A stretch of 64,000 bases of DNA from Phycisphaerales bacterium. Lineage in GTDB: Bacteria; Planctomycetota; Phycisphaerae; Phycisphaerales; UBA1924. Below, piece by piece: positions 37,066 to 53,171 of the stretch. The stretch lies in the NCBI GenBank assembly GCA_020850415.1, contig JADZER010000060.1, positions 62,001 through 126,000 of the forward strand, in the 5' to 3' direction. Each line of letters opens with the position of its first letter. Position 1 is the stretch's first letter. The translations under genes and the position numbers were made by a program. The notes under the pieces are model-generated. The model saw only the letters and a list, made by a program, of their open reading frames with translations. It had not been told where the DNA came from and ran no database searches.

Positions 37066-39081
37066 CTATGGCTCGGTGACTCCGTCAGAGGGGGCTACGC
37101 CCCACGCCCCGGAGGCCAACTCTGCCGGGGCGCTCCCCTCATTGTTCGCACCCCGACGGCCCAGGGGCAGCCACGCGAGAAATCCCCCCGCCGCCATCAC
37201 CCCGCCCCCCACCCAGACCCACACCACCAGAGGGTTGATAACCACCACAAACCCCGCCCGCTCCCCGCCCGGAGACCACCACGCGAGCACCACATACAGG
37301 TCGCCCCCGGCCCGACGCCACACCGCGACCTCGCCCATCGGGTCCATCGCCCGGTCGTAGTACCGCCGCTGAGGCCGCAGCTCGCCCACAGCCCCCCGAG
37401 CGTCCGTCGCCCGGAGTCTCGCTTCCATCGCGCTGTAGTTCGCCCCCCTCAACTCCGTGAGTTCCCCGTACGCGATCCGATAGCCGCGAACCTCCACCTC
37501 CTCCCCCCGGCCGATGGTGCAGTGCTCCCGCGCCGAATAGAGCCCGGACCCGCAGACCCCCAGGAGCAGCAGACACAGCCCCGCGTGGGCAAGCTGTCCC
37601 CCGTACCGCCGCCGGTGCGCGCAGAGCGTGCCCCAGGCCGCCCCTGGCCACCCCTCCCCGGGGCCCCGTCTCGACCGCACGGTGTCGGCGAAGCGCAGAC
37701 CGATGACCCCGGGGGTGACCGTCGCGATCGCGATGCAGACGAGCGACGCAGAGTGCGTGATCCCCTGGATGAGCGCGGCCGTCCCCGCGGCCAGCGCCAG
37801 GGCGCCCGGCAGCACCAGCACCCGGCGCACTGCACCAGCGCCACCCTCCCCATACCCAAGCGCCGGCCCGACCGCCATCACGCACGCTCCCGCAAGCCCC
37901 AAGGACCCCACGACGCGGTTGTAGTAGGGGGCCCCCAGGCTCACCTGCTGCCCCAGGAGCAGCCCGCTGACCACCGGGAACAGCGTCCCCACCAGCGTGG
38001 CCACGAGCATCGCGCACAGCAGCAGGTGCAGCACAACCACCGCCCCGTCGCGCCCCAGCAGCCCGCCGATCCCGGGCCCGGACCGCAGCGTCCCGCGCCG
38101 CGCCCAGAGCAGCCCCACCGACCCACCCCCCAGCACCACGAGCAGCCCCAGCAGGTACACCCCGACCGTTGTCGCCCCGAACGCATGCACCGACACCAGC
38201 AGGCCGCTCCGGGTCAGCGTCGTTCCTAGCACGCAGAGAGAGAAGGCCAGGCACGCCAGGCCGGCCCCCCAACCCCGCAGGCTCCCCCGCTCCCTCGTCA
38301 CCAGCAGCGCGTGCAGCAGCCCCGTCACCGCGAGCCAGGGCATGAGCGAGGCGTTCTCGACCGGGTCCCACGCCCAGTACCCGCCCCAGCCGAGTTCCAC
38401 ATACGCCCACCACGCCCCCAGCAGGATGCCCCCCGTCAGGAACACCCAAGACGCCAGCGCCCACCGGCGCATCACCGCGAACAGGCCCGGCCCCAACTCG
38501 CCCGTCACCAGGCCCCCGATCGCGAGGGCGAACGGCCCCGCGCTGCAGGCGTACCCCAGGAACAGCGTCGGCGGATGCACCACCATCGCCCAGTGCTGCA
38601 GCATGGGGTTGAGCCCCACGCCGTTCTCAATCTCGGGGCGTGGGTTTGGCGCGAAGGGGTCCGCGACCATCAGAAGGATCGCCGCGAAGAACAGCCCCAG
38701 CGCCGCGAGCACCGCCCCGGCCAGCGCCGCCGGCGCGCCGCGGCCCGGGCGGACCGCCCCGATCGCCCCGACCCCCGCCAGCAGGAACGCCCAGAGCAGC
38801 AGGCTCCCCTCCTGGCCCGCCCAGACTGCGGCGACCTTGTACGCCACGGGCAGCCCGCGCTCCGAGTGCAGCGCGACCGCCCGCATGCCCAGGTCATCGC
38901 GCACAAACGCGGACATCAGGGTTCCCAGCGCGAGCGCCAGTCCCGTGAGCTGCCCCCATGCCGCCGCACGGATGAGCCCCGCCCCTCTGCCCCGCCCCCG
39001 GGTCATCAGCCCGGCCAACACCCCGACCGCCGCCATCCCCGCCGCGAGGACCAGCCCCGACTCGCCGATCCACCGGGTCAC
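37066..39081 (-). CDS. ccmF: Cytochrome c haem lyase subunit CcmF
   Basis: WAGQEGSLLLWAFLL, GLNPMLQHWAMVVHPPTLFLGY, WWAYVELGWGGYWAWDPVENASLMPWL. Confidence 0.95.
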   Translation of the reverse strand: MTRWIGESGLVLAAGMAAVGVLAGLMTRGRGRGAGLIRAAAWGQLTGLALALGTLMSAFVRDDLGMRAVALHSERGLPVAYKVAAVWAGQEGSLLLWAFLLAGVGAIGAVRPGRGAPAALAGAVLAALGLFFAAILLMVADPFAPNPRPEIENGVGLNPMLQHWAMVVHPPTLFLGYACSAGPFALAIGGLVTGELGPGLFAVMRRWALASWVFLTGGILLGAWWAYVELGWGGYWAWDPVENASLMPWLAVTGLLHALLVTRERGSLRGWGAGLACLAFSLCVLGTTLTRSGLLVSVHAFGATTVGVYLLGLLVVLGGGSVGLLWARRGTLRSGPGIGGLLGRDGAVVVLHLLLCAMLVATLVGTLFPVVSGLLLGQQVSLGAPYYNRVVGSLGLAGACVMAVGPALGYGEGGAGAVRRVLVLPGALALAAGTAALIQGITHSASLVCIAIATVTPGVIGLRFADTVRSRRGPGEGWPGAAWGTLCAHRRRYGGQLAHAGLCLLLLGVCGSGLYSAREHCTIGRGEEVEVRGYRIAYGELTELRGANYSAMEARLRATDARGAVGELRPQRRYYDRAMDPMGEVAVWRRAGGDLYVVLAWWSPGGERAGFVVVINPLVVWVWVGGGVMAAGGFLAWLPLGRRGANNEGSAPAELASGAWGVAPSDGVTEP

Positions 39082-39473
39082 CCGCCCGCCCCGGCCGGCT
39101 CGTACTTGCTGCCGCATTTGGTGAGCAGGACATCGGCCACGAAGGTCCCGGCCTCGTCGGTGGTTCCCTCGACCACGACCTCGCGCCCTTCTGCGAAGAG
39201 GTCCGGCACCGCCCCGCGGTACTCCACCCGGATCACTCGGGCCTGACCCCGCAGGTCGAACCGGGCGCCGAACGCGATAGGGTCGGCCGTCGCCCCCGGC
39301 CCCACCGTGCCGTGCACCCTCGACCGGGCCCCCTGGGTCTCCGGCCTCGAGGCGTACTCATCAACAGAGAGGTAGTAGACCCAGCCATCCCGTGCGCCGG
39401 TGACCCCGAGGTACAGCAGGGCGGCCGCGATGGCCCCAACCCCGACCACGAGCTTGAGCCGAGCCTTGCGCAC
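39078..39473 (-). CDS. ccmE: CcmE haem chaperone, CxxxY variant
   Basis: N-terminal TM, VEYRGAVPDLFAEGREVVVEGTTDEAGTFVADVLLTKCGSKYEP; Cys replaces the usual His of HxxxY. Confidence 0.9.
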   Translation of the reverse strand: MRKARLKLVVGVGAIAAALLYLGVTGARDGWVYYLSVDEYASRPETQGARSRVHGTVGPGATADPIAFGARFDLRGQARVIRVEYRGAVPDLFAEGREVVVEGTTDEAGTFVADVLLTKCGSKYEPAGAGG

Positions 39474-39836: not shown

Positions 39837-40445
39837 ATGAAACGGCACCATCTGGTCGGTGCACTGGCAGTCGCGGGCCTGGCGCTCCCGGCGATGGCAC
39901 AGATTTCGGGCTCGGGCCACGACTTCAGCGGCTGGGCCTGGTCCGGCGGCGAGATCTGCAAGCCCTGCCACACCCCCCACAACGCCATGCCCGACCTGCC
40001 CCGGCTGTGGAACCACGAGTTGACCACCGCCACCTACGACATGCACGGCGGCACGGGCACCGCGGAGGATGACTTCGATGTCGTCAGCCGTCTGTGCCTC
40101 TCCTGCCACGACGGCACGGTGGCCCTCGACAGCTTCGGCGGCCAGACCGGCACGAACTTCATCAACCCGGGCAAGAGCCTCGGCACCGACCTGACCAACG
40201 ACCACCCGGTCGGCAGCGACGCCGAGTATCCCCCCGACCCGCCGCCGAGCTGGTGGAGCCACGCGTTCCGTGACGCGGCCGACCTCGATGTGCCGCTGAA
40301 GAACTGGGTCAACGACACCGGCGCTACCCGGAAGGTCGTCGGCTGCACCACCTGCCACGACGAGCACGCTACGGGCGGCTATGACCACATGCTGATCATG
40401 AGCAACGCCGCGTCGAGCCTCTGCCTCAACTGCCACATCAAGTAA
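39837..40445 (+). CDS. Tetraheme c-type cytochrome, secreted
   Basis: Signal peptide; CKPCH, CLSCH, CTTCH, CLNCH; RBS aaggag. Confidence 0.93.
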   Translation: MKRHHLVGALAVAGLALPAMAQISGSGHDFSGWAWSGGEICKPCHTPHNAMPDLPRLWNHELTTATYDMHGGTGTAEDDFDVVSRLCLSCHDGTVALDSFGGQTGTNFINPGKSLGTDLTNDHPVGSDAEYPPDPPPSWWSHAFRDAADLDVPLKNWVNDTGATRKVVGCTTCHDEHATGGYDHMLIMSNAASSLCLNCHIK

Positions 40446-40628
40446 CCCGCAGTATTCCGTCCAGGCCGGCTCGCTCGACGGGCCCGGCCTGGGCGGGACT
40501 TTCTCTCTCCGCGCCTCGGGCCCGGCGGGTGCGTGTTCCCCGGCGTGCGATGAGGCCGATCAGAAGGCCGGAACGAGCAGCGCTCCCTGCCTCCAAGGGG
40601 GAGCCAACTGAAACCGGATGGTTGCGTT

Positions 40629-40664
40629 GCGCGCCGGCGGCTTGGGGCCTTCGGCGCGTTTTTT
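40629..40664 (+). terminator. Putative Rho-independent terminator
   Basis: GCGCCG...CGGCGCG followed by TTTTTT. Confidence 0.55.
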
Positions 40665-40739
40665 CATGCGACCACAGGGATTGATCGACCGATTTCTCTA
40701 CAATCCGCCGCGAACCAAACTCCAGATGAGGGCCACGCC

Positions 40740-41987
40740 ATGCCTCCACGCGTCCGCTCGATCGCCCGTCTCGCCGCCCCGCTCGCCGTGGGCATGATCC
40801 TGCTCGCCGGCTGCGGGGGAGGCGCCCCGGCCACTTCGCGCAAGCCCTCGGTCTCGGGGCTCTACGCCTTCTGGCCCCGGCCCCCCGCCGACCCGCACAT
40901 GCAGTTTCTCCAGCCCATCGCCTCGCGGGAGGATGTCTCGCCGGAGAAGCGCAGCGCCCTGAGCAACCTGGTCTTCGGCGAGGACCAGGAGCTGCAGAGC
41001 GCGATCGAGAAGCCCTACGGCGTGGACATCCGCGACGGGTGCATGTATGTCTGCGACATCCGCAAGAACACGCTCGTCGTGCTCGACTTCGCCAAGCAGC
41101 AGATGCGGCTGGTCGGCGCGACCGGCTTCAACACGCTGGTCAACCCCGTCGATGTCCATGTCGCCGACGACGGCATGATCTATGTCGCCGACAACGAGCG
41201 GCTCGCGGTCTTCGTCTTCGGGGCCGACGAGCGGTTCCAGCGCGTCATCGGGCACGACGAGTTCCGCCCGGTCGGCGTGGTCACCGTCGGCGACAGGCTC
41301 TATGTCTGCAACATCGAGCAGCAGGTCGTCGAGATCTTCAACCGGTTCACCGGCGAGCAGATCGGCTCGATCGGCTCGGTCGGGGATCAGGACGGCCAGT
41401 TCCGGCTCCCGATCGGGATCGACGCCGACGGCGAGGGCAACCTCTATGTCGTCGACATGATGCGCTGCCGGGTCCAGAAGTTCGGCCCCGACGGGGCGTT
41501 CCTCGCCTCGGTCGGGGATGTCAGCGACAACGCCGGCTCGTTCGTGCGACCCAAGCAGATCGCCGTGGACAGCGACGGGGTCGTCTATGTGGTCGACGCG
41601 GCGTTCCAGAATGTCCAGATGTTCGACTCGGAGTTCCGCCTGCTGATGCACTTCGGCGCCGCCGGCGACTTCGCCGGAGCGATGAACCTCCCGGCCGGCA
41701 TCTGCGTCGACGACACCTCGCTGCGCTACTTCACCGACGAGCTGCACCCGGGCTTCCGCGCCAAGCGGCTCGTCCTGGTGACCAACCAGTTCGGGCTCGC
41801 CAAGGTCAACGCCTACGCCATGGGCGACCGCGACGAGGGATGGACCATCTCCGAGCTCACCATCAACGCGGCGGATGTCGGGGCGGGCGTCGGGCAGAAC
41901 CCCGAGATGACCAGGCTTCAGGACCCCGGAGAACTCCCGGACGACGAGCCGCCGGTCGAGACACCGAGCCAGGGCGGCGGCAACTAG
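40740..41987 (+). CDS. NHL-repeat beta-propeller lipoprotein
   Basis: Lipobox LLAGCGGG; repeated IDADGEGNLYVVDMMRCRVQKFGPDGAFLASVGD-type blades. Confidence 0.88.
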   Translation: MPPRVRSIARLAAPLAVGMILLAGCGGGAPATSRKPSVSGLYAFWPRPPADPHMQFLQPIASREDVSPEKRSALSNLVFGEDQELQSAIEKPYGVDIRDGCMYVCDIRKNTLVVLDFAKQQMRLVGATGFNTLVNPVDVHVADDGMIYVADNERLAVFVFGADERFQRVIGHDEFRPVGVVTVGDRLYVCNIEQQVVEIFNRFTGEQIGSIGSVGDQDGQFRLPIGIDADGEGNLYVVDMMRCRVQKFGPDGAFLASVGDVSDNAGSFVRPKQIAVDSDGVVYVVDAAFQNVQMFDSEFRLLMHFGAAGDFAGAMNLPAGICVDDTSLRYFTDELHPGFRAKRLVLVTNQFGLAKVNAYAMGDRDEGWTISELTINAADVGAGVGQNPEMTRLQDPGELPDDEPPVETPSQGGGN

Positions 41988-42008
41988 CCTGAGAACCGCG
42001 GAGGTTCC

Positions 42009-42680
42009 GTGACGGACCGGTCGCCAGCTCCCAGACGAGCCATCCGTCGCCCGGCGGCGGCGGCGCCCTGCGCCGCGATCGTCCTCGCGTTCATCGTCTG
42101 GGCCGGATGCACCGTCACCCCCGAGAACTACGAGGTTCTCAGCTACTTCTTCGACGGGGTGCCCGACCCCAACGCCCCGATCGGCTCGCCCGGCGTCCCA
42201 CTCCGCCAGAGCCCCACCTACTCCATCCACGAGCCCTACGCCGACAAGAAGTGCGTCGACTGCCACGGGCGGCGGTTCCAGATGTCGGCCGTCGAGCCCG
42301 CGGTGTGCCTCCAGTGCCACGAGACGATCACCGACGCCCAGCCCCTGATGCACGGGCCGGTCGCCGCCGTCGCCTGCCTGTGGTGCCACACCCCGCACGA
42401 GTCGCCCTACGCCGCCCTGCTGAAGGGCCCGGACCGTGAGGTCTGCGGCGCCTGCCACACCCCCGAGATGCTCGGGGCCGCCAAGACCCCCGAGCACGAG
42501 CCCGATTCGGCCGTGAGCTGCCTCGAGTGCCACTCCGGCCACGGCGGCACCTCGCGGTACTTCCTGCACGGCGAGGCGCTCCTCGACCAGGCCCGCGCCG
42601 GGCGCCCCGACCCCCAAGCCGCGCCGGACCCCACCGCAGAGCCGCGCCTCCAGAACCCCGGAGAGGAGCCCACGCCGTGA
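42009..42680 (+). CDS. Pentaheme c-type cytochrome, putative lipoprotein
   Basis: IVWAGCTVTPENYEVLSYFFDGVPDP; CVDCH, CLQCH, CLWCH, CGACH, CLECH. Confidence 0.92.
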   Translation: MTDRSPAPRRAIRRPAAAAPCAAIVLAFIVWAGCTVTPENYEVLSYFFDGVPDPNAPIGSPGVPLRQSPTYSIHEPYADKKCVDCHGRRFQMSAVEPAVCLQCHETITDAQPLMHGPVAAVACLWCHTPHESPYAALLKGPDREVCGACHTPEMLGAAKTPEHEPDSAVSCLECHSGHGGTSRYFLHGEALLDQARAGRPDPQAAPDPTAEPRLQNPGEEPTP

Positions 42681-44713
42681 GCGGCCAGCCGGTCCGGGTT
42701 GCGTTGCTCCTGGCGCTCTGCGGCTCGGTGGCCGGTCTGGCCTCGCGGGCCCGGGCCCAGCAGACGCCCCCGGCGCAGGAGGGCGAGCCCATCATCATCG
42801 GCGAGGAGGAGGTCTACGACCCCTGGAAGCTCGATTCGTTCGGCGCGGCGCTCAACACCGAGGCCCGCTACCGCCGCTTCCGCCGTTCGACCGCCGGGCA
42901 GCCCGATCAGGTCGACACCGAGCGGTACCTGCTCGGGCGCCTCGACCTCTCGGGGCGCGCGTTCATCGGGCACGAGAACCTCATCGACCTCAACGGGCGG
43001 GTGGGCATCGGGTGGGAGGAGACCGACTTTGACAGCGACACCGCCGGCGCCTCGCAGACCGACAGCGGCCTGACCTACCTGTACGATGTCTCCGCGCTGA
43101 TCCTCCGCGACGGCCCGGCGCCGGTCACGGTCTACTCGCGCCGGGAGGAGCAGCGGCTGGAGCGTGAGTTCTCCGGCTCGATCGACGGCACGACCGAAGA
43201 GCACGGGGCCATGGCCCGCATCCAGTCCGAGGACTGGCCCACCTTCATCCATGTCTACCGGCGGGAGGCCGAGCAGCAGGACCGTCTGGGCCAGATCGAC
43301 TACGGGCTCAGACAGGACTCGCTGAACATCCGCACCAGCCCCGAGCTCGGCGAGAACCAGGATCTCATGCTCGAGTACGCCCTGGACCTCGTCGACGAGC
43401 ACCAGAGCAGCTCGTTCAAGAACAGCTTCACGCGCCACGATGCCCAGGCGGTCCACACGGTCAACTTCGGCGCCGACAACCAGCACAACCTGCGGTCGAC
43501 CGCCCGCTTCTACGACGAGTCGGGCCTGGCCGATCTCCGCCGGTACCGGCTCGACGAGGTGCTCCGGCTCAAGCACACCGAGGACTTCGACACCCGGTGG
43601 GACGCCACCGCCGAGGAGAACACCCGCTCGGACCAATGGCAGCGGTTCGTCAAGGCCCAGGGCCAGGCCCGCTACAAGCTGTTCGAGAGCGTGGTCGCGA
43701 TCGCCACGCTCGGCGCGGACCGGCTCGATGTCGCCGGCGGGTTCAACTCCACCCAGTACTTCGGCGACGCCCAGCTCGAGTACACCAAGCGCGTCCCCCT
43801 CGGACGCCTCTTCGCCTCCGCCGGCGCCGGCGCCAACCGCCAGGAGAACAGCGAGCAGGGGTCACCGCTTCTCATCGCCGATCAGCGGGTCACCCTCACC
43901 GACCCCCAGCCGGCGCTCATCAACCGGCGCAATGTGGTCGACGGCTCCCTGCTCGTCACCAACGCCGACGGCACCCGCATCTATGTCGAGGGGCTCGACT
44001 ACACCGTCACCGTCTTCCCCTCCCATGTCGAGATCCGGCGCGTCGTGGGCGGCGCCATCGCCGAGGGCGAGACCGTGCTGGTCGACTATACCGTCGGTCC
44101 CGAGCCCGCGAACACGATCGACAGCGTGTCCGCCAACTTCGGCGTCCGGTATTCCCTGGAAGAAGGGGCGCTCCAGGGCCTCGGCACATTCCTCAATTAC
44201 ACCACCGTCGACCAGTCCGTGGACGCCGCCGATCCCTCCCGCTTCATCCTCGACGACAGCAGCGACCTCCGCTACGGTGTCGAGTACCACCGCGTCGGCG
44301 TCACCCTCCAGGCCGAGCGGCGCCACCACGACAGCACCATCTTCCCCTACGACACCTCCCGCCTCGAGGCCCGCTACGACACCCGGGCCGGGCCCCTCGC
44401 GTCCCTCTCGGCCGGCGTCACGCACGACATCTCCGACTACCCAGACACCGGCGATCAGCTCCAGCTCACCCGCGCGACGATCCGCATCTCCGGGCGCGTC
44501 GGCGACAGCCTCGATATCAGCGGGCGCGTCATCTACAGGGACGAGCGCTCCCGGCTCTCCAGCGACCTCGCCGGCTTCGAGCAGGCCATCGATGTGGCCT
44601 GGCGGAAGGGCCGGACCACTGTCACCGGCTCGCTGTTCAACGGGTTCCTCGACGCCGAGACCACCGACTCGCTCAGCCAGACGATCAGCATCGGCGTCCG
44701 CAGGACCTTCTGA
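42677..44713 (+). CDS. Outer-membrane beta-barrel protein (putative porin of a porin-cytochrome conduit)
   Basis: Signal peptide ...LASRARAQ; alternating amphipathic strands over ~650 aa; C-terminal TISIGVRRTF ending in Phe; ATGA/GTGA overlap with pentaheme gene. Confidence 0.75.
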   Translation: MSGQPVRVALLLALCGSVAGLASRARAQQTPPAQEGEPIIIGEEEVYDPWKLDSFGAALNTEARYRRFRRSTAGQPDQVDTERYLLGRLDLSGRAFIGHENLIDLNGRVGIGWEETDFDSDTAGASQTDSGLTYLYDVSALILRDGPAPVTVYSRREEQRLEREFSGSIDGTTEEHGAMARIQSEDWPTFIHVYRREAEQQDRLGQIDYGLRQDSLNIRTSPELGENQDLMLEYALDLVDEHQSSSFKNSFTRHDAQAVHTVNFGADNQHNLRSTARFYDESGLADLRRYRLDEVLRLKHTEDFDTRWDATAEENTRSDQWQRFVKAQGQARYKLFESVVAIATLGADRLDVAGGFNSTQYFGDAQLEYTKRVPLGRLFASAGAGANRQENSEQGSPLLIADQRVTLTDPQPALINRRNVVDGSLLVTNADGTRIYVEGLDYTVTVFPSHVEIRRVVGGAIAEGETVLVDYTVGPEPANTIDSVSANFGVRYSLEEGALQGLGTFLNYTTVDQSVDAADPSRFILDDSSDLRYGVEYHRVGVTLQAERRHHDSTIFPYDTSRLEARYDTRAGPLASLSAGVTHDISDYPDTGDQLQLTRATIRISGRVGDSLDISGRVIYRDERSRLSSDLAGFEQAIDVAWRKGRTTVTGSLFNGFLDAETTDSLSQTISIGVRRTF

Positions 44714-44734
44714 CACTCCCTCGGAGCATCCACC

Positions 44735-45880
44735 GTGCCCACCGGCAACGCCCCGAACCCGAGCCCCGCCGCGCCGCACCGCCTGCCCCGCGCGCCCCTA
44801 TGCCGCGCGGCGCTGGCCGCCCTGGCCGCCGGGCTGCTGCTGCCCGGCTGCGCCAAGCCCGCCGGCGTGCTGTTCGAGACTGCCGACACCCTGATCGTCT
44901 GGCCGCCCCCGCCGGACGCGCCCCGTGTGCGCTATGTGGGGCAGCTCCGCTCGGCGGACGACCTCCGCGCCAGCCGCAACGCGCTCCAGGAGCTCGGACG
45001 CACCGTGTTCGGCCCCGGCGAGCCGGTGGGCGTCCTGCTCGGCCCGATCGGCGTCTGCACCGACAACGCGCGGCGCGTCTTCATCGCGGACCGTGCCGCG
45101 GGCCTGGTCCATGTCTACGACCTCGACTCCCGCCGCTACGAGAGCCTGCGTCCCCCCGCCGGCGAGCACACGCTCTTCGAGCCGGTCAGCGTGGCGTATG
45201 ACCCCGCGGGGCGGCTGTTCGTATCCGACCCCGGCGCGGGCGTCGTCCATGTCTTCCAGGACGGCGGGGCCTACCTCGGCACGCTCGGCGACGGGCAGAT
45301 CGCCCGCCCCGTCGGTCTGGCGTTCGATGCCGCCCGGCAGCTCCTCTACATCGCCGACCCCGGCGACCACCGCGTGGTCGTCCTGACCATGCAGGACACG
45401 GTCGAGGCCTCGATCGGCTCGCGCGGCAGCGGGCCCGGGCAGTTCAACTTCCCCACCTTCGTCAGTCTCGGCCCGGACGGCCGGCTCTTCGTCGCCGACA
45501 CGCTCAACTGCCGCGTCCAGGTCTTCGGCCCGGACGGTGCGTTCGAGCGGTCCGTCGGCTCCCGGGGCGACCTGCCCGGCTATTTCTCCCAGCCCAAGGG
45601 CCTGGCCGTCGACGCCGAGGGGCGCCTGTTCGTCGTGGACGCGAACTTCGAGGCGGTCCAGATTTTCAACGAGCAGGGCCAGCTGCTGATGAGCTTCGGC
45701 CAGGAGGGCCACGGCCCGGGCGAGTTCTGGCTCCCGGTCGATCTCCGAATCGACGAAAGCGGTCGCCTCTGGGTGGCCGATTCGTACAATCGGCGGGTGC
45801 AGGTCTTCGAGATCATCCCGCCCGAGGCCACGCCCGCCCACGAGCCGACCGAGCCCGCCCCGGAGGAGCAGACGCCATGA
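44735..45880 (+). CDS. NHL-repeat beta-propeller lipoprotein
   Basis: Lipobox LLLPGCAKPAG; blades e.g. FVSLGPDGRLFVADTLNCRVQVFGPDGAFERSVGSRGDLPGYFSQPKGLAVDAEGRLFVVD. Confidence 0.88.
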   Translation: MPTGNAPNPSPAAPHRLPRAPLCRAALAALAAGLLLPGCAKPAGVLFETADTLIVWPPPPDAPRVRYVGQLRSADDLRASRNALQELGRTVFGPGEPVGVLLGPIGVCTDNARRVFIADRAAGLVHVYDLDSRRYESLRPPAGEHTLFEPVSVAYDPAGRLFVSDPGAGVVHVFQDGGAYLGTLGDGQIARPVGLAFDAARQLLYIADPGDHRVVVLTMQDTVEASIGSRGSGPGQFNFPTFVSLGPDGRLFVADTLNCRVQVFGPDGAFERSVGSRGDLPGYFSQPKGLAVDAEGRLFVVDANFEAVQIFNEQGQLLMSFGQEGHGPGEFWLPVDLRIDESGRLWVADSYNRRVQVFEIIPPEATPAHEPTEPAPEEQTP

Positions 45881-47493
45881 GACCGCTGCTGTGTGTGATC
45901 CCGCTGCTGGCCTCCCTCGCGACATCCGTGGCCGGCCAGCCCGAGTCCATCGTCGGCAGCCCCCACGACCTCTCTGTCGGCGGCCCGGGCCCCGTCCGGG
46001 CCACCTTTGAGGACCAGGTCTGCATCTTCTGCCACACCCCGCACAACGCGAGCCCCATCCGCCCGCTGTGGAACCGCTACCTCCCGGTCGATAACTACCG
46101 CATCTACGCCAGCCGGGCCCTCGACGCCGAGCCCGGGCAGCCCACGGGCACCTCGAAGATGTGCCTCTCCTGCCACGACGGCACCATCGCCCTCGGCGTC
46201 GTCTTCTCCCGTCAGACGCCCATCCCCATGGCCGGCGGCGTGACCGTGATGCCCGACGGGGCCGCCAACCTCGGCACCGACCTCTCCGACGATCACCCGA
46301 TCAGCTTCCGGTTCGACTCGGCGCTGTCGGCCCAGGACGAGCACCTCCTCGACCCGGCCCTGCTGCCCGACGAGCTGCGCCTCGACGCCAACGGCGAGCT
46401 GCAGTGCACCACCTGCCACGATGCCCACGACGACTCCCGCGGCAACTTCCTGGCGATGCACAACTTCGACTCGCAGCTCTGCAACGCCTGCCACCAGATC
46501 TCCACGACCACCATCGCCGAGCACGAGTCCTGCAACGCCTGCCACCAGCCGCACACCGCCCCCAGCGGGCCGTACCTGCTGCGCGGGCAGAATGTGGTCG
46601 AGACCTGCCTCGCCTGCCACGACGGCGGGTTCCACGGCGCCGCCAACATCGCCAACGACCTTGGGAAGCCCTCGATCCACGAGACCTACAGCCAGGTCGA
46701 CCCGCCCGACCCGCAGTTCATGCACACCTCCTGCACGAGCTGCCACGACCCGCACAGCATGCATGCCGGCTCGGCCGAGCCGCCGCTGGTGCACCCGAAC
46801 ATGGGCGAGATCGACGGCGTCAACGCCTCGGGGTCGCCGGTCACGGTCGCGAGCTATGAGTATGAGGTCTGCTTCAAGTGCCACGCCGACCAGCAGGCGA
46901 CCCCGCCGTTCATCCAGCGCCTCGCCCCGGCCAACAACACGAGACAGCAGTTCAGCCCCGGCGCGATCAGCTACCACCCCGTCGAAGCGCCCGGGCGCAG
47001 CTCCGATGTCCCCAGCCTCCGCCCGGGGTGGACCACCTCCAGCCTCGTCCAGTGCTCCGACTGCCACGGATCGAACTCCGGCTCGGCCGGCGGCGGCAGC
47101 GGGCCCGACGGCGTCCACGGCTCGATGTTCTCGCCCCTCCTCGTCGCCCGCTACGAGACCTCCGACTACACCACGGAGAGCGCCGGCGCCTACGCCCTCT
47201 GCTACCAGTGTCACGACCGCGCCAGCATCCTCGGCGATGAGTCCTTCCCCGGGCACGACAAGCACATCCGCGACGAGCGCACCCCCTGCTCGGCGTGCCA
47301 CACCGGCCACGGCATCGCCTCCGGCCAGGGCTCCAGCACCGGCAACTCCCACCTCATCAATTTCGACACCGCCATCGTCTTCCCCAACGGCGCGGGGCGG
47401 CTGGAGTTCCGCGACACCGGCTCCCGCAGCGGCGAGTGCTTCCTGAGCTGCCACGGCGAGAACCACGACCCCGCGAGCTACCCGGACGATTGA
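45877..47493 (+). CDS. Multiheme c-type cytochrome (11 CXXCH + 1 CX3CH)
   Basis: GSPHDLS; CIFCH, CLSCH, CTTCH, CNACH x2, CLACH, CTSCH, CFKCH, CSDCH, CYQCH, CSACH, then CFLSCH. Confidence 0.93.
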   Translation: MRPLLCVIPLLASLATSVAGQPESIVGSPHDLSVGGPGPVRATFEDQVCIFCHTPHNASPIRPLWNRYLPVDNYRIYASRALDAEPGQPTGTSKMCLSCHDGTIALGVVFSRQTPIPMAGGVTVMPDGAANLGTDLSDDHPISFRFDSALSAQDEHLLDPALLPDELRLDANGELQCTTCHDAHDDSRGNFLAMHNFDSQLCNACHQISTTTIAEHESCNACHQPHTAPSGPYLLRGQNVVETCLACHDGGFHGAANIANDLGKPSIHETYSQVDPPDPQFMHTSCTSCHDPHSMHAGSAEPPLVHPNMGEIDGVNASGSPVTVASYEYEVCFKCHADQQATPPFIQRLAPANNTRQQFSPGAISYHPVEAPGRSSDVPSLRPGWTTSSLVQCSDCHGSNSGSAGGGSGPDGVHGSMFSPLLVARYETSDYTTESAGAYALCYQCHDRASILGDESFPGHDKHIRDERTPCSACHTGHGIASGQGSSTGNSHLINFDTAIVFPNGAGRLEFRDTGSRSGECFLSCHGENHDPASYPDD

Positions 47494-47569: not shown

Positions 47570-49777
47570 CTACTTGATGATCAGCATCTGCTGGTAGGTC
47601 GGCATCGGCCAGTGGTCCGCCGCGACATGCTGCTCGAGCTCGTCAACCGCCTGGCGCAGCGCGGCCATGGCGGGGACGACCTTGGCGCGGATCGCCGCGG
47701 CGTGCTTGGCCGGGCCCCCGTGCTCGCCCTTCAGCGCGGCCTCCAGCACCGCCAAACGGCTCTGGCAGGCCCGGGTCAGCCCGACGACCCGCTCGACCTC
47801 CTCGCGCAGCTCCGGGTTCTCGATCTCGACCGACTCGCTCGCGCCGAGGGCGTCGATGACCTCGGTCTGGTGACGCCAGGCCCCCGGCAGCACCTTCGTG
47901 CGCACGAGCGAGACCATCGTCTCGGCCTCGATGAGCAGCTGCTTGCAGTACTTCTCGAAGAAGATGGTCGACCGGCTCTCGACCTCGGCCTTGCTGAGCA
48001 CCTTGTGCCTGAGGAAGACCGCGACGCTCTCCCGGCCCGTCAGCACGCCCAGCGCGTCCACGCTGTCCCGCAGGTTGGGCAGCCCACGACGCTCGGCCTC
48101 GTCGTGCCACGCCTTGTCGTACCCGTCGCCGTTGAACAGCACCCGCTTGTGGTCCTTGACCACCTGCTTGAGCACTGTCTTCACCGCTTGCTCACGCTTG
48201 GCCGGCGTGGGGCTCTTGCCCATCGCCTTCTCGAGCCGGTCGGCCATGACCGTCAGCGCCTCGGCCACGATGGTGTTCAGCACCGTCGTCGGCCAGCTCA
48301 CCGCCGCCGACGCGCCGACCGCCCGGAACTCGAACTTGTTGCCCGTGAACGCGAACGGGCTGGTGCGGTTGCGGTCGCCGGTGTCGCGGGGGATCTGCGG
48401 CAGGCTCTTGGCGCCCAGATCCAGCTTCCCGCCCTTGATGGTCTTCTTGGTCTCGCCGCTCTCCAGCTGCTCGATAATGTCCATGAGCATGTCGCCCAGG
48501 AAGATCGAGATGATGGCCGGCGGGGCCTCGTTAGCGCCCAGGCGGTGGTCGTTGCCCGCGCTGGCCACGCTCGCCCGCAGCAGCGTCGCGTAGGTGTCCA
48601 CCGCGTAGATCACCGCGCACAGGAACACCAGGAACTGCATGTTCGTGTGCGCCTCGTCGCGGGGGTCCAGCAGGTTCACGCCCGTGTCGGTCGCCAGCGC
48701 CCAGTTGAGGTGCTTGCCCGACCCGTTGATCCCCGCGAAGGGCTTCTCGTGCAGCACCGCCCGGAGCCCGTAGCGGATGCCCACCCGACGCAGCGTCTCC
48801 ATCACCAGCATCTGGTGGTCGCACGCCAGGTTCGCCGTCTCAAAGTAGGGCGCGATCTCGAACTGCCCGGGCGCGACCTCGTTGTGGCGCGTCTTCACCG
48901 GCACCCCCAGCCGGTAGAGCTCCCCCTCGCACTCGGCCATGAACGCCAGCACACGCTGCGGGATCGACCCGAAGTAGTGGTCCTCGAGCTGCTGGCCCTT
49001 GGGCGGCTGGGCCCCCAGCAGCGTCCGGTCGCACATCACCAGGTCCGGCCGCTGGTAGTACAGCTCACGGTCGAGCAGGAAGTACTCCTGCTCGGCGCCG
49101 ACCGTCGCCAGCACCCGCCCCACGCCCTCCGCGGCGTCAAAGAGCCGGAGCACCCGCAGCGCCGCCCCGGACAGCGCGTCCATCGACCGCAGCAGCGGGG
49201 TCTTCTTGTCCAGCGCCTCGCCGTTCCACGACACGAACGCCGTCGGGATGCACAGCGTCACATGGTTGGGCCCCCGGACCAGGAACACCGGGCTCGTCGG
49301 GTCCCACGCGGTGTACCCCCGGGCCTCGAAGGTGGCCCGCAGACCGCCCGAGGGGAAGCTCGAGGCGTCCGGCTCGCCCTGCACCAGCATCTTCCCGGTG
49401 AACTCGTTGATCACCCCGCCGTGCCCGTCGGGCGTGATGAAGCTGTCGTGCTTCTCCGCCGTCGAGCCCGTCAGCGGCTGGAACCAGTGCGTGTAGTGGG
49501 TCGCCCCCTGCTCGACCGCCCACTCCTTCATCGAGGCCGCGATCACATCCGCCACCTCGTGGGCCAGCTGCGACCCGCTCTGGATCGCCCGCATGAACTG
49601 GCGGAAAGTGTCCTTGGGGAGCCGCTGCTGCATCAGCCGCTCGTTGAACACATCGCAGCCGAACTCCCCGTGTACATGGCCCTGCCGGTTGTAGACCCCG
49701 CTGGGCTGGCTCGGGGAGCGCAGCCACGGCTCCGAGCTCTGGTGGACGACCCCGACTCCGTTGTTCAGCCGATGCAT
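47570..49777 (-). CDS. glnN: Glutamine synthetase type III
   Basis: ~735 aa; [87 protein letters not shown]. Confidence 0.95.
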
Positions 49778-49928
49778 CGCGCGTGTTCCTTCCTGTGCAT
49801 ACGGGCGGATATGCACGCGGGGACCCGGCGCCCCGCGCCGCTCATCGGTGCGCATTGTGACAACCTCGGACCCGGCGGCAAGCCGGGCCCGGGCCGCGGG
49901 GCAGAAATCCCGCGATTTCGCCGAGCAA

Positions 49929-50768
49929 TCAGCCGCCCCGGGAGGGGTCCGGCGCCGCCGCCGCCCGCGTCCCGCGGGCCGCCGACGCCAGCTCGCCCAC
50001 GAAGGACCCCGCCTCGGCGATCGGGTCGGCCCCCTGCTCCACCGCCTGATCGATGCGCCGGACCAGCGCGCTGCCGACGATCGCCGCGTCGGCGTGGGCG
50101 ACCACCGCACGGACATGCTCCGGAGTCGAGACCCCAAAGCCGCACGCGATCGGCAGCTCGGTCCACTCCCGGAGCCGGGCCACCCGCCGGGCGACATCGG
50201 GGGCCTCCCCCCGCTCGCCGGTAATCCCGGTCCGGGCAATGAGATAGACGAACCCCGTGCATGCCCGGGCGATCGCTTCGGCCCTCGCGATGGAGGTCGT
50301 CGGCGCGATCAGCAGCGTCGCGGTCAGCCCCTGCTCCCGCGCCGCGCCGAGCAGCGCGTCCGACTCCTCCAGCGGCACATCCGGGTAGATCACCCCATCG
50401 AAGCCCGCCCCCGCCGCCCGGGCGGCGAACCCGTCCGGCCCGCCCGCCCTGTACACGATCGAGGCGCTGACCATCGCCACCAGCCCCAGCCCGGTCGAGC
50501 CCCGGGCCCGCGAGACCTGCTCGAACACCGACTCGGGCGTCGCGCCACGCTCGAGCGCCCTGTGCATCGCCGACGCGATCACCGGCCCGTCGGCGATCGG
50601 GTCCGAGAACGGGATCCCGATCTCCGCAATAGACCCGCCCGCCCGCTCGAGCGCCCCGAGGAGATCGGGCAGCGAGTCCGGCGCCGGGTGCCCGGCGCAC
50701 ACGAAGGGCATGAGCAGCCGTCGCTGCGACTGGCGGGCGTCCTGAAAGATCGCGTCGATGCGGTTCAT
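49929..50768 (-). CDS. trpA: Tryptophan synthase alpha subunit
   Basis: [64 protein letters not shown]. Confidence 0.95.
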
Positions 50769-51041
50769 GGCGGGAGCGTATCGCCCGTTCTTCACCGTGT
50801 GGCGCCCGACCGCCCAAACGCTATTGACCACACTGGGAAGCCGCGGTATCTTGGGGTATCAGGTATTTGGGTGTTGTTGCCTAAGAGTTCGGGTATTCGT
50901 GTTCACAACCGAGCGGCCCCGGCAGTGTTTGCCCGGGGGCCCTGAGCAGCCGGCGCCGAGCGAGCCCGGCCCCGATCGATGCGCGGCGTGGGTGTCCCCA
51001 CGGCGCGCCTGTCGCGTCCAGTCTTGAGTGAGGAGAAACAC

Positions 51042-53171
51042 ATGTTGGACCGCTGGTCTAGGAAACTGTCCGCCGTCGCCCTGCTGGTGGCGGCGATGGG
51101 TGCTTCGGCGGGTGTCGGCGCCCTCGAATCCCCGGGTGCCGCCTCCCAGCCGGAAGCCGCTCCGGCCCTGTTCGTCGAGATCCCCGGCGTCATGCTCTTC
51201 TCGGGGCAGGTGATCGCCAAGCCCCTGCAGTTCGACGACATGGCCGACCGCGGCATGAGCCAGCAGCAGATCTCCGGCGTCATCGCCCAGACCGACGCCC
51301 TGCTCGCGCAGTTCGTCGAGGTCTGGTACGAGCCGCTGGTCGACCACCATGTGCTCCGCGTCCCCGCCGGGATGACCGACGCCCAGTTCGTCGCGAGCCT
51401 CCTCTCCACCGGCCTCTTCGAGTTCGTGGAGCCCGACTGGACCCTCTTCCCCATCGCCAACTGCACCACCGACACCAACCTCCCCAGCCAGTGGCACCAC
51501 AACTCCAACCGCATGGCCTCCTGCGAGGCCTGGGGCATACACACCGGCACCCCCGCCGTCACCGTCGGCATCTGCGACACCGGCGTCCAGACCAACCACC
51601 CCGACCTCCTCCTCAACCGCAAAGAGGGCTACAACGCCGTCAACCGCGTCTGGGAGAGCAACGGCGGGCAGATCGGCCCGGTGCACTCCCACGGCACGAT
51701 GACCACCGGCTGCGCCGCCGCCAACGGCAACAACGGCAGGGGCGTCTCCGGCTCCGGCTGGAACCTCAGCCACCGCATGATGCGGGTCTCCAACAGCTCC
51801 AGCGGGAACGCCAACCTCAGCGACCTCACCCACGCGGCGCTCACCAGCATCCAGGCCGGCGACAAGGTCGCCAATGTCAGCTACTCCGGCGTCAACTCCT
51901 CCTCCGTCCGATCCACCGCCACCCAGATCAAGAACCTCGGCGGCCTGCTCACCTGGTCGGCCGGCAACGACGGCGCCAACCTCAACTGGGGCAACCGCGA
52001 CGCGGACGATGTCATCGTCGTCGGCGCCACCACCAGCGGCGACTCGAAGTCCAGCTTCAGCGCCTACGGCCCCAGCGTCGACCTCATGGCCCCCGGCAGC
52101 GGCGTGTACACCACCAACAGCAACAGCGGCTACGCCGCCGTCGACGGCACCAGCTTCTCGGCGCCCCTCACCGCAGGCCTCATCGGGCTCATCTGGTCCT
52201 ACAACCCCGGGCTCTCGCCCGACGAGGTCGAGGCCATCCTCAAGGCCGGCTGCGACGACCTCGGCTCCGCCGGCGTCGACAACACCTACGGCTACGGGCG
52301 CATCGACTCTTACGAGTCCCTGCTCCTCGCCGGCGGCTCCGCCAACACCCCGCCGGTCATCACGGTCGTCTCCCCGGGCAACGGCTCGGTGTTCACGCAG
52401 GGCGCCACCATCGTCTTCGACAGCAACACCGTCGACGCCGAGGACGGCGACCTCTCCGCCCAGGTGACCTGGACCTCCTTCACCGACGGCCTCCTCGGCA
52501 CCGGCGATTTCTCCTCGAGTTCCCTCTCGGTCGGCATCCACTTCATCACCGTCGCGGTCACCGACTCCGGCGGCCTGACCGACAGCGAGTTCCTCTCCAT
52601 CTCCGTCGAGGCCCCCGCGCTCCCCGCCGCGCCGACCCCGATCGCCACCACAGAGGGCCAGCCCGGCGCCCTGACCTTCACCTGGACCGACAACTCCAAC
52701 AACGAGACCGGCTTCACCGTCCAGCGCCAGCAGAAGGTCGGCTCCACCTGGACCAACACCACCACCGTGGGCACGCTCCCGGCCAACGCGACCTCCTCGA
52801 CCGACTCGCCCGGCTCTGGCGCCTGGCGCTACCGCGTCCGCGCCAGCAACGGCGCCGGCAACTCCTCCTGGACCGCCTTCAAGATCGCCAAGCCCGCAAC
52901 GCCCACCGGCATGACCGGCAGCGCCGCCGGCTCCACCGCCAACCTCGCCTGGAATGACAACTCCGGCATTGAGAGCGGCTACACCGTCCAGCGCCAGCAG
53001 AAGGTCGGCTCCTCGTGGACCAACACCACGACCGTCGCCACCACCGCGCAGAACGCGACCTCCTACGCCGACACCCCCGGCTCGGGCGTGTGGCGCTACC
53101 GCGTCCGTGCCGCCAACGCCGGCGCCGCCAGCTCCTGGTCCTCGTGGTCGGGCAATGTGAACATCCCGTAA
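51042..53171 (+). CDS. Secreted subtilisin-like (S8) serine protease with C-terminal Ig/FN3-type domains
   Basis: GICDTGVQTNHPDLL, HGTMTTGCAAANGNNGRGVSG, DGTSFSAPLTAGLIGL; two near-identical modules ...GFTVQRQQKVGSTWTNTTTV... Confidence 0.92.
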   Translation: MLDRWSRKLSAVALLVAAMGASAGVGALESPGAASQPEAAPALFVEIPGVMLFSGQVIAKPLQFDDMADRGMSQQQISGVIAQTDALLAQFVEVWYEPLVDHHVLRVPAGMTDAQFVASLLSTGLFEFVEPDWTLFPIANCTTDTNLPSQWHHNSNRMASCEAWGIHTGTPAVTVGICDTGVQTNHPDLLLNRKEGYNAVNRVWESNGGQIGPVHSHGTMTTGCAAANGNNGRGVSGSGWNLSHRMMRVSNSSSGNANLSDLTHAALTSIQAGDKVANVSYSGVNSSSVRSTATQIKNLGGLLTWSAGNDGANLNWGNRDADDVIVVGATTSGDSKSSFSAYGPSVDLMAPGSGVYTTNSNSGYAAVDGTSFSAPLTAGLIGLIWSYNPGLSPDEVEAILKAGCDDLGSAGVDNTYGYGRIDSYESLLLAGGSANTPPVITVVSPGNGSVFTQGATIVFDSNTVDAEDGDLSAQVTWTSFTDGLLGTGDFSSSSLSVGIHFITVAVTDSGGLTDSEFLSISVEAPALPAAPTPIATTEGQPGALTFTWTDNSNNETGFTVQRQQKVGSTWTNTTTVGTLPANATSSTDSPGSGAWRYRVRASNGAGNSSWTAFKIAKPATPTGMTGSAAGSTANLAWNDNSGIESGYTVQRQQKVGSSWTNTTTVATTAQNATSYADTPGSGVWRYRVRAANAGAASSWSSWSGNVNIP

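Follow-up and report, generated by a model that had tools for sequence, protein, structure and literature searches.

The DNA analysed here, referred to below as the window, is a 64,000-nucleotide stretch from a Phycisphaerales bacterium (UBA1924; assembly GCA_020850415.1, contig JADZER010000060.1, positions 62,001–126,000 of the forward strand). At window positions 39837–47493 are six open reading frames (ORFs), all on the + strand, encoding three multiheme cytochromes, two NHL-repeat propeller lipoproteins and a large predicted barrel protein. This operon, hereafter the module, is likely to be an extracellular electron outlet, in which an Mtr-like outer-membrane conduit is coupled to an OmcE-type nanowire. 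The components are of known kinds, those of Mtr-like conduits and of OmcE nanowires. The features of the module are as follows.

39837..40445, + strand: OmcE-family tetraheme cytochrome, 202 amino acids, Sec signal, 4 CXXCH motifs; predicted nanowire subunit
40629..40664, + strand: weak terminator-like hairpin, then U6
40740..41987, + strand: NHL beta-propeller lipoprotein 1, 415 amino acids; Pfam NHL 8e-12; lipobox LLAGC, found by eye
42009..42680, + strand: pentaheme lipoprotein cytochrome, 223 amino acids, 5 CXXCH motifs; half-length MtrA relative
42677..44713, + strand: predicted outer-membrane beta-barrel, 678 amino acids; 28 long strands and, at residues ~398–473, an insert; C-terminal Phe
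44735..45880, + strand: NHL beta-propeller lipoprotein 2, 381 amino acids; Pfam NHL 1e-30; lipobox LLPGC, found by eye
45877..47493, + strand: secreted 12-heme cytochrome, 538 amino acids, 11 CXXCH motifs and one CX3CH

An initial annotation of this DNA had reported six genes containing 20 CXXCH motifs and one CX3CH, and its coordinates and counts were exactly right, the motifs being split over the three cytochrome genes. A six-frame scan of the window found 22 CXXCH motifs; because 20 of these sit in the three cytochrome genes, the cluster is not a product of chance. A 728-amino-acid reading of the barrel ORF uses too long a start; the protein has 678 amino acids when read from the GTG at 42677. 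Pfam matches above cut-off were Paired_CXXCH_1 in all three cytochromes and NHL repeats in both propellers.

Genes 2 to 6 are close-packed, with intergenic gaps of 21, -4, 21 and -4 bp, i.e., two pairs overlap by 4 bp. The tetraheme gene is set apart, 294 bp upstream of the propeller 1 gene, and is followed by the hairpin and U6 (RNA fold -24.2 kcal/mol; shuffle z -1.5). In relatives, the median gap between the tetraheme and propeller 1 genes is 222 bp, and the medians of the other module gaps run from -1 to 77 bp. Given the wide gap, the hairpin and U6 after the tetraheme gene, and the similar spacing in relatives, it is plausible that more tetraheme is produced than of the other module products, as would suit a filament subunit. 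A promoter scan found none.

Two cytochromes of the OmcE family

The initial annotation overlooked that the first and last genes of the module encode proteins of the OmcE nanowire family. In phmmer searches of the PDB, the tetraheme matched 7TFS, the OmcE nanowire of Geobacter sulfurreducens, at 2.6e-12, and 9YUQ, an entry with 16 chains, at 5e-19. The tetraheme family profile matches 7TFS over its full length (E 7e-39, chain residues 3–232), with the four CXXCH motifs in register. With four proximal and four distal histidines, the tetraheme has the capacity for bis-His ligation of every heme. The distal histidines, in the contexts HD.., CHTPH, DHP and CHxxH, are conserved in 41/41, 43/45, 45/45 and 45/45 relatives, respectively, and the same four are found in both proteins solved by cryo-electron microscopy (cryo-EM), 7TFS and 9YUQ, and in the N-domain of the 12-heme protein. 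OmcE and the planctomycete tetraheme therefore match in heme motifs and distal histidines, four of each. In OmcE, one heme is ligated across the subunit interface (PMC9473688; PMC12954529). From these similarities the tetraheme is predicted to be a nanowire subunit.

The 12-heme protein is made up of an OmcE-like tetraheme domain (residues ~11–207) followed by an eight-heme domain with seven CXXCH motifs and the CX3CH. It matches 7TFS at 2e-30 by phmmer and, through the N-domain, at 3e-46 by profile, so that the likeness to OmcE takes in its N-terminal third as well as the whole tetraheme. The AlphaFold2 model of the 12-heme protein has a predicted local distance difference test score (pLDDT) of 83.9, and its sole significant fold match in the PDB is again 7TFS, with a template modelling (TM) score of 0.70 by target length. 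The pLDDT drops below 50 only at residues 50–64, the CHTPH loop; this is suggestive, at most, of a loop that becomes ordered only by a neighbouring subunit. The OmcE domain keeps its full ligand set, CHTPH included, in 49/49 aligned relatives, and the whole protein supplies 12 proximal and 14 invariant distal histidines. The eight-heme half has a match to an MtrC/MtrF-like domain, and the protein is without a lipobox. With TIGR03507, the MtrC/OmcA-family decaheme model, the tetraheme scored far below cut-off and the 12-heme protein was not among the matches listed.

In a second group of genomes the 12-heme counterpart is divided. In genomes labelled Geobacter-like on the basis of OmcE identity and gene neighbourhood, it is represented by two adjoining genes, one for a four-heme OmcE-like protein and one for a 7+1-heme protein; both products have their own N-terminus, and a propeller gene precedes the pair. 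Since the halves are fused in one group and encoded by adjacent genes in another, the arrangement suggests that they work together. In these same genomes, Desulfobacterota with the closest OmcE relatives (60–61% identical), an NHL propeller gene lies directly upstream of the OmcE gene, just as the tetraheme and 12-heme genes of the module pair with propeller genes. The Geobacter-like OmcE loci differ from the module in having neither a barrel nor a pentaheme gene of the module type, nor a single-gene 12-heme fusion, and no match to the barrel family was found in these Geobacter-like genomes. At three loci (L147:85-11729, L150:7617-18998 and L152:2808-10960), genes for a propeller, an OmcE-like tetraheme, a 7+1-heme and a 3+1-heme protein stand in a row, and each row leads without a break into genes for type II secretion (F, E, PilN-like, secretin). 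Operons of this type may correspond to the oxpG region of G. sulfurreducens.

The pentaheme lipoprotein and the barrel

The pentaheme lipoprotein matches chain A of 6R2Q at 1e-10 by phmmer, and the profile of its family matches the same chain at 8e-29, once for each of the two pentaheme repeats of MtrA. The chain is called MtrA here since 6R2Q is the Mtr complex; the PDB molecule name given to it is wrong. Its five proximal and its five distal histidines occur without exception in 24/24 pentaheme sequences. Some relatives have ten-heme versions (e.g., L030, L073, L089), and in one of these the pentaheme matches twice. Soon after the lipid-anchor Cys, at residues ~34–52, is a conserved motif of the FFFDGVPDP type that is possibly a docking tag.

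The barrel sequence gave no Pfam match and no PDB sequence match. Its AlphaFold2 model, made from a 54-row alignment, has a mean pLDDT of 91.4, a predicted TM score of 0.80 and 28 long strands, and the 50 Foldseek matches listed from the PDB are all outer-membrane barrels. Among those 50, the best TM score belongs to MtrB (6R2Q_B, 0.42/0.43); other barrels have lower E-values. The protein is thus predicted to be a conduit-sized barrel that is like MtrB in shape only. From strand parity, with both termini periplasmic, the insert (~398–473) would lie on the outer face. The beta insert contains a number of the residues that are best conserved in the barrel family and, at residues ~398–483, resembles a phage tail-tube model in 24/54 relatives (best E 9e-10). 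In the window barrel the resemblance, at residues 417–483, is below cut-off (5.7e-5); phage tail-tube identity was rejected and the match taken as similarity of the insert only.

These results bear out two proposals of the initial annotation, that the 42677–44713 product is a barrel, which is now predicted with high confidence to be a large outer-membrane one, and that the locus encodes an electron-transfer conduit, for which the predicted barrel, its top TM score with MtrB and the kinship of the pentaheme to MtrA all speak. Neither of the outcomes that the annotation had named as refuting its reading, a product that is not a barrel or cytochromes that are soluble periplasmic reductases of known substrate, was obtained. 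Of the conduits it had named for comparison, the Mtr type is closer than Omb-Oma-Omc of Geobacter. Like MtrCAB, MtoAB and PioAB (6R2Q), the module encodes a multiheme MtrA relative next to a large barrel, and the 12-heme protein has its MtrC/F-like match. The differences are that MtrA carries ten hemes whereas the module cytochrome carries five and is lipid-anchored; that MtrB has 26 strands (PMC12133095) whereas 28 are predicted for the module barrel, with sequence homology between the two undetectable; and that the outer partner is MtrC in the one and an OmcE fusion in the other. In the Geobacter Omb-Oma-Omc complexes a periplasmic octaheme cytochrome is combined with a porin and a dodecaheme OmcB-type lipoprotein, whereas the module has a pentaheme and a lipobox-less 12-heme protein with an OmcE domain; this comparison is one of composition.

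Propellers, gene order and distribution

Relatives were surveyed with one genome per species. At least 555 loci with 12-heme relatives were found and the best 80 retained, so that the counts per phylum are minimum values that favour near relatives; G+C-rich shadow ORFs were removed with a composition-based gene caller. Some record titles are doubtful, and the assignments of single metagenome-assembled genomes were not relied on. The titles of the best 80 loci name Planctomycetota, Verrucomicrobiota, Bacteroidota, Ignavibacteria, Calditrichota and KSB1, and further Nitrospirae, Nitrospinota, Zixibacteria, Hydrogenedentes, Gammaproteobacteria and Desulfobacterota. The module is syntenic in Planctomycetota, Verrucomicrobiota, Bacteroidota, Ignavibacteriota, Calditrichota, Desulfobacterota and others, and the six-gene set recurs in at least ten bacterial phyla. 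The composition that the initial annotation called unusual is so relative to the model conduits, but it is conserved over many phyla.

The genes commonly run tetraheme, propeller 1, pentaheme, barrel, propeller 2, 12-heme; in some phyla, blocks of them are rearranged. The propeller 1 gene directly follows the tetraheme gene in 52/64 cases, and the propeller 2 gene directly precedes the 12-heme gene in 71/82, with a median gap of -1 bp. Other same-strand neighbours are barrel and propeller 2 (56/73) and pentaheme and barrel (42 pairs). Most of the 23 genomes that have no tetraheme gene at the 12-heme locus carry a stand-alone one elsewhere. The tree of 12-heme proteins runs largely by phylum, and within Planctomycetota the distribution is patchy: a full-length 12-heme match was found in ~12 of 300 sampled genomes, the present one included, and in none of the six other genomes sampled from the same family. 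The 12-heme protein of one record titled as a cyanobacterium, 'Leptolyngbya sp. PLA1' (L050, QWIH01000001), falls inside the Planctomycetota clade, and the record is probably a mislabelled bin.

At three loci (L104:4322-6145, L106:3641-5122 and L120:4041-5984) one protein combines propeller 1 with an eight-heme domain, and at L087:1-2295 a propeller is joined to eleven hemes. Because gene order ties the propellers to OmcE-type cytochromes, and because of the propeller–eight-heme fusions, the propellers are probably partners in cytochrome handling or electron transfer and not a generic scaffold. The direct data on them consist of the pairing of each propeller gene with an OmcE-type cytochrome gene; the docking or scaffold role offered in the initial annotation is a guess.

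Parts of this arrangement have parallels elsewhere. The OetABI conduit of syntrophic sulfate reducers (PMC10553843) likewise brings together in a single cassette a porin, a lipoprotein cytochrome and cytochromes of the nanowire type, and its filament, with OmcS/OmcX-like cytochromes, was proposed to act with the conduit (PMC10553843). The OetABI filament is of the OmcS type, a sequence family other than that of OmcE; OmcX relatives with 11–12 heme motifs (PMC5539420) could be kin to the 12-heme protein. In the clusters of Seep-SRB1 and D. ferrophilus (PMC5539420, PMC8322314), six-bladed propellers adjoin extracellular multiheme cytochromes, as in the module; their core is a 16-heme and a 26-heme cytochrome, a propeller and a peptidyl-prolyl isomerase, whereas the module has neither an isomerase nor such large cytochromes. 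The putative porin–multiheme cytochrome clusters of freshwater Verrucomicrobia (PMC5615132), as described in passages of that paper, combine neighbouring multiheme cytochromes with a barrel that has 20 strands or more, in a phylum of the Planctomycetes–Verrucomicrobia–Chlamydiae (PVC) group, and Verrucomicrobiota also carry the module. By description, the periplasmic cytochrome of those clusters has eight hemes, and the same passages make no mention of propellers or OmcE relatives. In the open-access literature, in which coverage of key nanowire papers is incomplete, we found neither the six-gene set nor the OmcE fusion described.

The proposed electron route and the genes around the module

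Candidate partners for electron supply were found at other loci. At L052 and L056 the module is followed by genes for a 13+2-heme cytochrome and for an 11+1-heme protein that includes a NapC/NirT quinol-dehydrogenase region, and the present genome has the same pair on contig C37, at ~293.5–296.5 kb (L041:9458-12462). These are probable periplasmic and inner-membrane partners, respectively, and because both genes are present a path can be traced from quinol to filament or the reverse. Electrons would reach the periplasmic side of the outer membrane, probably via the NapC/NirT-type multiheme quinol dehydrogenase and the 13–15-heme carrier, and the pentaheme lipoprotein, seated in the 28-strand barrel, would take them across. 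Outside, they would pass into the eight-heme half of the 12-heme protein. The OmcE-like half would take the first free tetraheme by ligation with a histidine across the subunit interface, in the manner of OmcE, and tetraheme would then polymerise outward from it. The NHL lipoprotein of each OmcE-type cytochrome would probably handle, export or anchor that cytochrome. In this scheme the 12-heme protein is a socket, with the eight-heme half docked on the conduit and the OmcE-like half serving as first subunit of the nanowire, a role that we put forward tentatively and with less confidence than the outlet itself.

The outlet could be as proposed and the 12-heme protein not be its connector. It might instead act at the surface as a terminal reductase, or form the tip of a filament or a second filament, with the OmcE-like domain a mark of ancestry. 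The MtrC/MtrF-like match of the eight-heme half is to a family whose members are terminal cytochromes of the cell surface, and the separate halves in Geobacter-like genomes indicate that a covalent link is not obligatory. We regard this alternative as rather unlikely, given that the 12-heme protein is well conserved, with 43–49% identity across planctomycete families (19–24% for the barrel), whereas surface cytochromes are fast-evolving (PMC12977616), and given that the ligands of the OmcE domain are complete in every aligned relative.

A reversed flow, in which the quinone pool is fed by Fe(II), a mineral or a partner cell, concerns direction and not architecture. Mtr-like conduits are bidirectional, with MtoAB and PioAB proposed for Fe(II) oxidation (PMC6344600), and the NapC/NirT-type 11+1-heme protein is compatible with either direction. 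The loci examined showed no gene specific to Fe(II) oxidation, a genome-wide search not having been made. Inward flow seems to us rather unlikely.

The pairing of OmcE-type genes with propeller genes (52/64 and 71/82) would also be found if the barrel and propellers were chiefly an export or assembly apparatus for these cytochromes and not a conduit, and shared export handling is plausible for the Geobacter-like operon in which propeller, tetraheme and eight-heme genes lead into type II secretion genes. Nevertheless, the gene most often directly before the barrel gene encodes an MtrA-related multiheme lipoprotein, which is the signature of a conduit; the top TM score among the 50 matches listed is with MtrB and not with an exporter; and the propeller–eight-heme fusions suggest a place for propellers in the electron path. 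An export apparatus is therefore improbable. That the cytochromes are soluble periplasmic respiratory reductases for a specific small substrate, as weak sub-threshold matches to NrfB/DmsE-type families might hint, is most improbable and largely refuted: conserved histidines can cap each heme of the module, so that none looks catalytic, the barrel is confidently predicted, and none of the cytochromes passes a curated model for a reductase of known substrate.

Several points weigh against a conduit coupled to a nanowire. The barrel and MtrB are 9% identical at a TM score of 0.42, a likeness of fold only, and TIGR03509, the MtrB/PioB model, does not match the window barrel and matches only one of 54 barrels, weakly (E 0.009). 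The pentaheme has half the heme number of MtrA, and at some loci (e.g., L059, L121) barrel and 12-heme genes occur with no pentaheme gene between them, possibly through small genes being missed. Homology to OmcE is no proof of polymerisation, the eight-heme half could equally face outward as a tip, and the physiological role of cytochrome filaments is itself contested (PMC11077965). Finally, the genome is a draft, 92.9% complete.

If the 12-heme protein is indeed a socket, the module would be a self-contained system of conduit, socket and wire present over at least ten phyla, with one propeller for each wire-type cytochrome, and it would provide the physical connection, missing until now, from outer-membrane conduits to cytochrome nanowires. 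With conduit, wire protein and fused candidate connector in one operon of conserved order, tests by deletion, cross-linking and cryo-EM become direct. Further, the OmcE-type repertoire is extended to Planctomycetota and other phyla seldom deemed electroactive, including Planctomycetales bacterium ZRK34 (L073).

Upstream of the module in the window, and divergent from it, is a set of genes identified by Pfam and NCBIfam.

33876..39473, - strand: cytochrome c maturation genes for CcmC, CcmB, a CcmA-like ABC protein, an unknown protein, CcmF and CcmE

These ccm genes are supporting machinery and lie outside the module; at L052, ccmE-ccmF are likewise upstream of it. At L052:2952-3674, L055, L057 and L079 a six-heme cytochrome gene, usually divergent, is found upstream of the module, and it is absent from that position in the window. 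The present genome has other multiheme genes: one at L042:6855-9104 (contig C4) encodes a protein in which eight hemes are joined to TPR repeats, and one at L040:12628-14703 (contig C11) a 692-amino-acid protein with eight CXXCH motifs, with further paired-CXXCH matches around C11:115-119 kb. Downstream of the module, window positions 47570–53171 encode a glutamine synthetase relative, TrpA and a subtilisin-like secreted protease, all of which look unrelated to it.

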